This document shows positions 16,308 to 40,481 of a stretch of 42,474 nt of DNA, piece after piece. Under the pieces are notes generated by a model. It did no database searches, was not told where the DNA came from, and saw only the letters and a program-made list of their open reading frames with translations. This stretch comes from Candidatus Zixiibacteriota bacterium (lineage in GTDB: Bacteria > Zixibacteria > MSB-5A5 > GN15 > JAAZOE01): assembly GCA_030668485.1 (NCBI GenBank), contig DAOUTW010000038.1, positions 1 to 42,474 on the forward strand. The letters run 5' to 3'. Position numbers and translations under genes: made by a program. How positions within the stretch are numbered: the stretch's first letter is position 1; each line of letters opens with the position of its first letter.

Positions 16308-16661
16308 TTACTGGCGGGAATTTGGATTATCTTTTCTGTTGTTCCGGGTGTTTCCCTTCCGCCTGTTTTTTGGCTCTTCTCGGGGAAATTCTTCTTCCTT
16401 TAGTCCCAGGTTTTTGGCCTGTACAACGACATCCCGAAGCGGTTCGTTGGGGCGCAGCGGAAACTCGCACAGTCGTTGTATCGCCATGACTCTCCTCCGC
16501 TGGAGATCCCGGTTTTCCTGGGCCAGAATATCAGATTCAAGCATCGCCAGTCCGTCTTCGGAGTCGGGAAGAAATATATACCATAATTCCTTCGGGATCC
16601 CATTGAGCATCTTCTTCACGCTGCGGTATGAATCCGGTATCCTGTGAGTCTCTTTTTTCAT
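16308..16661 (-). CDS. Small uncharacterised protein, paralogue of the 40161 gene
   Basis: The product has 117 residues and a basic tail rich in Asn/Arg. It aligns without gaps over about 75 residues with the protein at 40161-40481. Shared blocks are Y..V(K/R).ML..IP..LWYIFLPD, GL..LES, (R/Q)..VMAIQ..C.FPLRPN.PL and K.L.LK. I do not recognise the family. With no signal peptide or membrane segment it is probably cytosolic, and the conserved Trp-Tyr-Ile-Phe-Leu-Pro-Asp core and the Cys before FPLRPN look like structural or binding elements. The Shine-Dalgarno is weak (ggtggt upstream of the ATG at 16661). Conservation between two distant loci on opposite strands is the main argument that it is a real gene. 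Confidence 0.75.
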   Translation of the reverse strand: MKKETHRIPDSYRSVKKMLNGIPKELWYIFLPDSEDGLAMLESDILAQENRDLQRRRVMAIQRLCEFPLRPNEPLRDVVVQAKNLGLKEEEFPREEPKNRRKGNTRNNRKDNPNSRQ

Positions 16662-39410: not shown

Positions 39411-39438
39411 TTGCATCATTTCAATTATGTATTATAAT
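39411..39438 (+). promoter_or_regulatory. Promoter of the Trp-leader transcript
   Basis: TTGCAT (39411-39416, 4 of 6) and TATAAT (39433-39438, perfect) are separated by 16 bases. The Shine-Dalgarno AGGAG follows at 39450-39454, so the 5' leader would be very short. Confidence 0.8.
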
Positions 39439-39461
39439 GAATATAGATTAGGAGACTATTT

Positions 39462-39560
39462 ATGTCGTTGTTCGCCCCCATAACTCTTGCCATATCAATT
39501 CTCTTTTGGTGGTGGTATACCTGTCAGTGGCGGTGGGCGAATATCCCTCTTTCGTTATAA
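39462..39560 (+). CDS. Tryptophan-rich leader peptide
   Basis: The 32-codon frame begins at an ATG with AGGAG seven bases upstream and ends in TAA at 39558-39560. It contains five Trp codons: three consecutive (codons 16-18, 39507-39515), then 23 and 25 (LFWWWYTCQWRW). This density of a rare amino acid in a tiny, ribosome-site-equipped frame followed by a terminator is diagnostic of trp-type attenuation leaders. A ribosome stalled at codons 16-18 leaves segment 2 free. The gene it precedes (39638) is not a recognised trp gene. Confidence 0.88.
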   Translation: MSLFAPITLAISILFWWWYTCQWRWANIPLSL

Positions 39561-39593
39561 CTCCTGTTAAAACAAGAAGATAATTCACCCGCC
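39471..39593 (+). promoter_or_regulatory. Alternative pairing segments of the Trp attenuator
   Basis: Segment 1, TTCGCCC (39471-39477), pairs over 7 bp with GGGCGAA within segment 2. Segment 2, GGTGGGCGAAT (39532-39542), pairs with segment 3, ATTCACCCGCC (39583-39593), over 11 positions with one mismatch and one G-U. Segment 3 contains the 5' arm of the terminator. The Trp codons lie between segments 1 and 2. Confidence 0.82.
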
Positions 39594-39609
39594 CCAGGCG
39601 GGTTTTTTT
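39587..39609 (+). terminator. Attenuator terminator following the Trp leader
   Basis: ACCCGCC (39587-39593) pairs with GGCGGGT (39597-39603) around CCA and is followed by a T-run to 39609. It lies 27 bases after the leader stop codon and 28 bases before the 39638 start. Confidence 0.9.
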
Positions 39610-39637
39610 ATGCCTGTAATTACAGATGGAGAAGGTT

Positions 39638-39895
39638 ATGAACAAGAAAAGCGTTCCTTCCGACAGAAAAAACTCTAACAAAGGCGCTATGCCGACGCCG
39701 GAATTGTTGCAGACCGTCGAGATGACAATCCGGAAGGCGATCAAGGAAAAGAAAGAGGGCGATGTGAAGGTGATTGTCTTCATTCTCAACGAACACGGTT
39801 TGCTGGATATGCAGGCGTATCAGACAAACCATCAGGGAAACATTGAAAAGGAGTCCAACCAGGGACAAAATTATTCCTTTGGAGTTGCCTGTTAA
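39638..39895 (+). CDS. Small uncharacterised protein under Trp-type attenuation
   Basis: ATG 39638 is preferred because GGAGAAGG lies immediately upstream and includes an earlier in-frame ATG (39626). This gives 85 residues: a basic, Ser/Asn-rich N-terminus (NKKSVPSDRKNSNKGAMPTP), one amphipathic helix and strand (LLQTVEMTIRKAIKEKKEGD, VKVIVFILNEHG) and a polar tail ending in GVAC. It contains no tryptophan, so it could still be made when Trp is limiting. I do not recognise the family, and it has no signal peptide. It is the first gene after the Trp attenuator and would be induced when Trp-tRNA is scarce. Another small gene lies 265 bases downstream. Confidence 0.65.
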   Translation: MNKKSVPSDRKNSNKGAMPTPELLQTVEMTIRKAIKEKKEGDVKVIVFILNEHGLLDMQAYQTNHQGNIEKESNQGQNYSFGVAC

Positions 39896-40160: not shown

Positions 40161-40481
40161 ATGCAGTACAACGTAGACAAAGCTCTTAAGTCGTACCACA
40201 ACGTCAGAACCATGCTAAAAAAGATCCCGAGGCAACTGTGGTATATTTTTCTCCCCGATACGATCGGCGGTCTGCATGCTCTTGAGAGCAGTGTTATGGC
40301 CTTGCGCCCTCGTGAAGTCGATCGTCAGAAGGTAATGGCCATTCAGCTCACATGTAATTTTCCCCTGCGGCCCAATGCACCTTTGCATGAGATAGCGGCC
40401 AGACTTAAGATTCTGAAACTTAAGAAGAGCGGGTTCGGGAATAGTAAAGAGGACGGCTCCGACGTTGCCGATTCACAATGA
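40161..40481 (+). CDS. Small uncharacterised protein, paralogue of the 16308 gene
   Basis: The product has 106 residues. ATG 40161 has GGAGGT eight bases upstream; the nearby ATG at 40157 is out of frame. It shares with 16308-16661 the blocks ML..IP..LWYIFLPD, GL.(M/A)LES, R..VMAIQ..C.FPLRPN.PL and KxLxLK, while N- and C-termini diverge. No transmembrane segment or known enzymatic motif is present. It lies 265 bases after the 39638 gene with no terminator I can see between them, so it may be in the Trp-attenuated transcript, but the spacing also allows a separate promoter. I do not know its function. Confidence 0.75.
   Translation: MQYNVDKALKSYHNVRTMLKKIPRQLWYIFLPDTIGGLHALESSVMALRPREVDRQKVMAIQLTCNFPLRPNAPLHEIAARLKILKLKKSGFGNSKEDGSDVADSQ

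Follow-up and report, generated by a model that had tools for sequence, protein, structure and literature searches.

A probable tryptophan attenuator of stand-alone trpB2 left ahead of a decaying gene remnant in a Candidatus Zixiibacteriota genome

Within the 42,474-nt stretch of Candidatus Zixiibacteriota DNA analyzed here (contig DAOUTW010000038.1, referred to as the window), we find what is very probably a canonical ribosome-mediated Trp attenuator of a stand-alone trpB2 gene, left before a decaying remnant of that gene. The original prediction placed this attenuator ahead of an unrecognized 85-residue protein that corresponded to no familiar trp gene, yet profile matches, protein alignments and DNA collinearity all identify the protein as the two termini of trpB2, a TrpB-like PLP enzyme gene, joined together. 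An apparent new Trp-starvation gene is thereby resolved into a gene remnant. The features of the locus are given below, with reference to an intact counterpart in G003, the FCB group bacterium isolate Gpa_11 MAG (JAAEQF010000468.1), which belongs to the same family as the host.

39411-39438 (+): putative promoter, TTGCAT (39411-39416), 16-nt spacer, TATAAT (39433-39438); the stretch CGCTTGCATCATTTC is the same in G003
39450-39454 (+): leader ribosome-binding site AGGAG, assigned from the sequence; TTAGGAGAC is conserved in G003
39462-39560 (+): predicted 32-codon leader peptide MSLFAPITLAISILFWWWYTCQWRWANIPLSL with five Trp codons; ATG at 39462, stop codon at 39558-39560
39528-39597 (+): predicted antiterminator, strand 2 (about 39528-39545) paired with strand 3 (about 39582-39597) in a ViennaRNA fold
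39587-39609 (+): predicted intrinsic terminator, ACCCGCC-CCA-GGCGGGT followed by a T-run; stem 39587-39603; z -4.2 for 39546-39612
39638-39666 (+): remaining beginning of trpB2, ATGAACAAGAAAAGCGTTCCTTCCGACAG where G003 has ATGCAGAAGAAAATCGTTCTTGCCGACAG, in the same blastn block as the leader
39667-39697 (+): in-frame deletion junction, with about 1,080 nt of trpB2 absent relative to G003 (blastn query 367 to 399, subject 429 to 1541)
39677-39895 (+): remnant of the trpB2 3' end including the stop codon, residues 14-85, 51-53% identical to the G003 TrpB2 C-terminus

The attenuator parts first proposed for this locus, namely a promoter with a perfect TATAAT, a ribosome site, a leader with WWW plus two further Trp codons and a terminator with a T-run, are all present. 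The promoter was unlisted in a consensus promoter scan of the window, and its support comes from the perfect TATAAT and from CGCTTGCATCATTTC, which is found unaltered upstream of the G003 trpB2 leader. The leader Trp codons lie at 39507, 39510, 39513, 39528 and 39534, and ViennaRNA folds are consistent with two exclusive outcomes. RNA from 39528 to 39612, which would be free when a ribosome stalls on WWW, is predicted to form the antiterminator (-26.0 kcal/mol), while RNA from 39572 to 39612, free with a ribosome at the stop codon, is predicted to form the terminator (-13.0 kcal/mol), as is likewise the case for a ribosome stalled at the fifth Trp codon. Folding of 39500-39612 as a whole gave a z of -2.7 against shuffles. 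Of the three alternative pairings envisaged by the original prediction, the antiterminator and terminator are borne out by these folds, but no separate classical 1:2 protector helix was clearly seen in folds of the leader region.

With plentiful Trp-tRNA, a ribosome would pass WWW and reach the stop codon, covering strand 2, and the 39587-39603 hairpin would end transcription; when Trp-tRNA is short, the ribosome would stall on WWW, strands 2 and 3 would pair, and transcription would enter the gene. The locus thus combines a Trp-codon leader after a promoter and Shine-Dalgarno sequence, a terminator before the gene, and a computed antiterminator exclusive of that terminator. Such an arrangement is rare by chance: the window holds a single short WWW ORF, which has a terminator, whereas 100 first-order Markov simulations gave 0.06 WWW ORFs per window and none with a terminator. 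The Rfam Trp_leader model (RF00513) scored the region at 23.1 bits (E 0.075), below its gathering cut-off of 41 bits. We infer that the attenuator may still be Trp-responsive.

Downstream, the ORF at 39638-39895 (+) does encode 85 residues without Trp, as first described, with an alternative in-frame ATG at 39626. The opening ~10 codons correspond to the beginning of trpB2, and residues 14-85 match only the C-terminal end of ~450-aa proteins, in nine relatives, with E values from 4.9e-18 to 8.8e-7. BLASTP aligned 72 residues with G003 TrpB2 at 53% identity, and the two proteins share the terminal SFGVAC. Against NCBIfam NF009057 the protein aligns to positions 375-435 of 441 (E 1.8e-10), and TIGR01415 gave a C-terminal match as well. 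Scored as a whole TrpB2, the protein reaches 40.0 bits against the NF009057 cut-off of 366, with only the C-terminal part covered, while the G003 protein reaches 718 bits there and 654 bits against TIGR01415 (cut-off 519). Pfam returned no match for the 85-aa protein, and had that blank been taken alone the protein would have stayed "unknown". It was also the one point in favor of the reading in which a Trp attenuator has taken control of an unrelated gene, a new member of the Trp-starvation response; with NCBIfam, blastp and DNA collinearity all placing trpB2 ends in their native position, we assign that reading next to no probability.

The alignments to G003 show how the short ORF is composed. 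There, promoter, Shine-Dalgarno sequence, WWWxTCxWRW leader, terminator and an intact trpB2 of 446 aa follow one another in the same order as in the window. One blastn block runs from the promoter to trpB2 codon ~10 (68% over 282 nt, E 1e-16), and a second, collinear block covers the trpB2 3' end (69%, E 7e-13); the intervening stretch measures ~32 nt here, as opposed to 1,112 nt in G003. By this comparison, trpB2 in the window lacks ~1,080 nt, from codon ~10 to codon ~370, in frame. The region of the PLP lysine (HKPNT) falls within the deleted part and is absent from the remnant, where the SGHG motif reads NEHG; as judged from its sequence, the 85-codon frame cannot encode an active TrpB2. 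The orthologous comparison consists of this one intact locus and one remnant. A DNA pattern scan of named genomes returned 17 stretches, only one of which is the G003 locus (L041), the other 16 lying in unrelated groups.

Because an orthologous leader stands ahead of intact trpB2 in G003 and leaders have the same role in other families (below), the attenuator reads as native to trpB2, not as the orphan leader captured after rearrangement that had been suggested. The G003 leader, MSSIAHNSIFTVSNQWWWCTCHWRWVITPSCP, shares WWWxTCxWRW with that of the window; conservation outside this motif is weak, and 12 of the 32 residues are identical overall. The shortened trpB2 form was found in none of the 59 relatives searched, and the leaders of relatives precede trp-type genes, with the 85-aa protein absent as such; this is essentially the pattern that the original prediction had named as contradicting it.

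The remnant has also changed faster than TrpB1 at the protein level. Between the remnant and G003 (71 codons), pS is 0.67 and pN 0.27 (dN 0.33, dS 1.68), compared with pS 0.67 and pN 0.12 (dN 0.13, dS 1.69) for the C-terminal 72 codons of TrpB1 in the same pair of genomes, so that, with dS the same, the remnant has ~2.5 times the dN of TrpB1. Of 42 sites that nearer outgroups conserve, 25 differ in the remnant and 12 in G003. These values indicate, though not beyond doubt, that the remnant is under relaxed constraint, since the 85 codons remain an open frame served by a plausible ribosome site, TrpB2 may generally outpace TrpB1, and 71 codons were tested. Differences from G003 at codon positions 1, 2 and 3 number 22, 17 and 36, the third position varying most, and together with the open frame this excess is compatible both with recent decay and with weak selection on a small ORF. 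An assembly error in a genome with an intact trpB2 is a conceivable source of the short ORF, given an in-frame deletion in a draft of 139 contigs, but it would not yield the faster amino-acid change and lost motif of the retained 3' part, and we regard it as extremely improbable.

That a new role in Trp shortage, for the 85-aa remnant or for the leader as terminated RNA or as peptide, has kept the attenuator in place after loss of its gene is quite unlikely. One form of this idea, a repurposed ORF yielding a short Trp-starvation-induced protein from the TrpB2 C-terminal segment that acts, for example, on TrpB1 or TrpA, could draw on the open 85 codons with their ribosome site and intact attenuator, and on the persisting 53% identity to the TrpB2 C-terminus, last six residues included. 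The elevated dN relative to TrpB1, the loss of the catalytic SGHG motif and the restriction of the shortened form to this genome among the relatives searched make it very unlikely. In another form, the attenuator outlives its gene through a terminated leader RNA or leader peptide acting in trans, as rnTrpL and peTrpL do in Sinorhizobium meliloti (PMC7298713); promoter, leader and terminator do look intact despite the broken gene, but no target is in evidence here, the leader is weakly conserved against G003 outside its Trp motif, and the leader may simply have had too little time since the deletion to decay. Such a role is highly improbable. We favor a native trpB2 attenuator before a remnant that is presumably functionless. 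A further candidate target of read-through, the downstream 106-aa ORF at 40161-40481 (+), has no Pfam match and belongs to an uncharacterized family that occurs in 19 of the 79 genomes in the order but of which no member was detected in G003, a distribution that does not tie it to the Trp leader. A paralogue from the same ~106-aa family lies at 16380-16637 (-).

The host's trp operon is complete on contig C126 (trpE, G, D, C, F, B, A, followed by DAHP synthase; names other than trpE and trpB were assigned from translations) and TrpB1 is intact (TIGR00263). As the original prediction had thought worth looking for, the operon carries its own leader, the WWWW peptide MNFSVSHNNIPGSARNWWWWSIPDTGSG with a terminator (L019). 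Searches of the host assembly, a draft, found five PALP-family proteins, none of them TrpB2, and no intact TrpB2; among the seven genomes of the host's family examined, G003 alone has an intact trpB2. The DAHP synthase gene directly after trpA (L019, 3731-2718, -) is a second copy, paralogous to that at 37492-36479 of the window.

Beyond the host's family, WWW leaders with terminators precede trpB2 at four loci from three other families of the same phylum (L055, L056, L057 and L061, in families f17, f15, f17 and f5). Trp leaders with terminators also stand ahead of trpE in G003, G001 (a tandem pair), G002, G004 and G124. Most trpE loci of family f4 showed no Trp leader, and in family f3, where trpB2 sits close behind another gene, no leader was found directly upstream. 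Leader-peptide attenuation is thus probably used for both trpE and stand-alone trpB2 in this FCB-group phylum, and the fact that several families have a Trp attenuator ahead of trpB2 points to a part in Trp supply there for this gene, whose physiological role is debated (PMC1854888). The literature searched held no account of trpB2 being preceded by a Trp attenuator in this phylum; the sole match for trpB2 with a leader or attenuator was one before an operon named trpB2A in Corynebacterium diphtheriae (PMC1262725). The tandem leaders upstream of G001 trpE, MNQISKYSTSYGFYFGRYWWWHYTTGR and MKQLTDKNNISNEVINQDTFCFGYSYSYYWWWYTTLPDSGSE (L131, 1025 and 1201, +), have one terminator each.

A separate observation in the window may merit more attention than the trpB2 remnant. 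At 38087-37900 (-), a Tyr-rich leader peptide, MNMYAHHIGFQPGYGSRYYRYYYYYNRQNDGGLAEFSSMR, is followed by a GCCCGCCATC...GATGGCGGGC-T7 terminator and directly precedes aroH (chorismate mutase), DAHP synthase (aroF) and tyrA at 37869-35619 (-); it looks like a Tyr-codon attenuator. Tyr-rich leaders with terminators also precede aroH homologues at L113 (GYYYRYYYAF), L117 (VLYYYSYRR) and L119 (SYYYYCIY), and a similar peptide, FYYRYYFGF, occurs at L114. The nearest precedent found is the Phe-Tyr-Phe leader AroR of Corynebacterium glutamicum (PMC11802643).

Finally, the Trp locus can be set against known systems. With the classical, Yanofsky-type trpL attenuator (RF00513; mechanism described in PMC7298713 and PMC11802643) it shares a tandem-Trp leader ORF, the antiterminator/terminator alternative and a T-run, but it precedes trpB2 instead of trpE and its gene is truncated. 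The trpE leaders of the host, G003, G001, G002 and G004 resemble it in their WWW or WWWW leaders and terminators, but control the trp operon and differ in leader sequence. The G003 locus, with orthologous promoter, leader, terminator and trpB2 start, differs in that trpB2 there is full length. A non-operon TrpB2 coexisting with an operon trpB1, TrpB2_o, is a known arrangement (PMC1854888); the window copy, as a remnant without catalytic parts, departs from it, whereas G003 trpB2 resembles TrpB2_o in arrangement, lying outside the trp operon and alongside trpB1.
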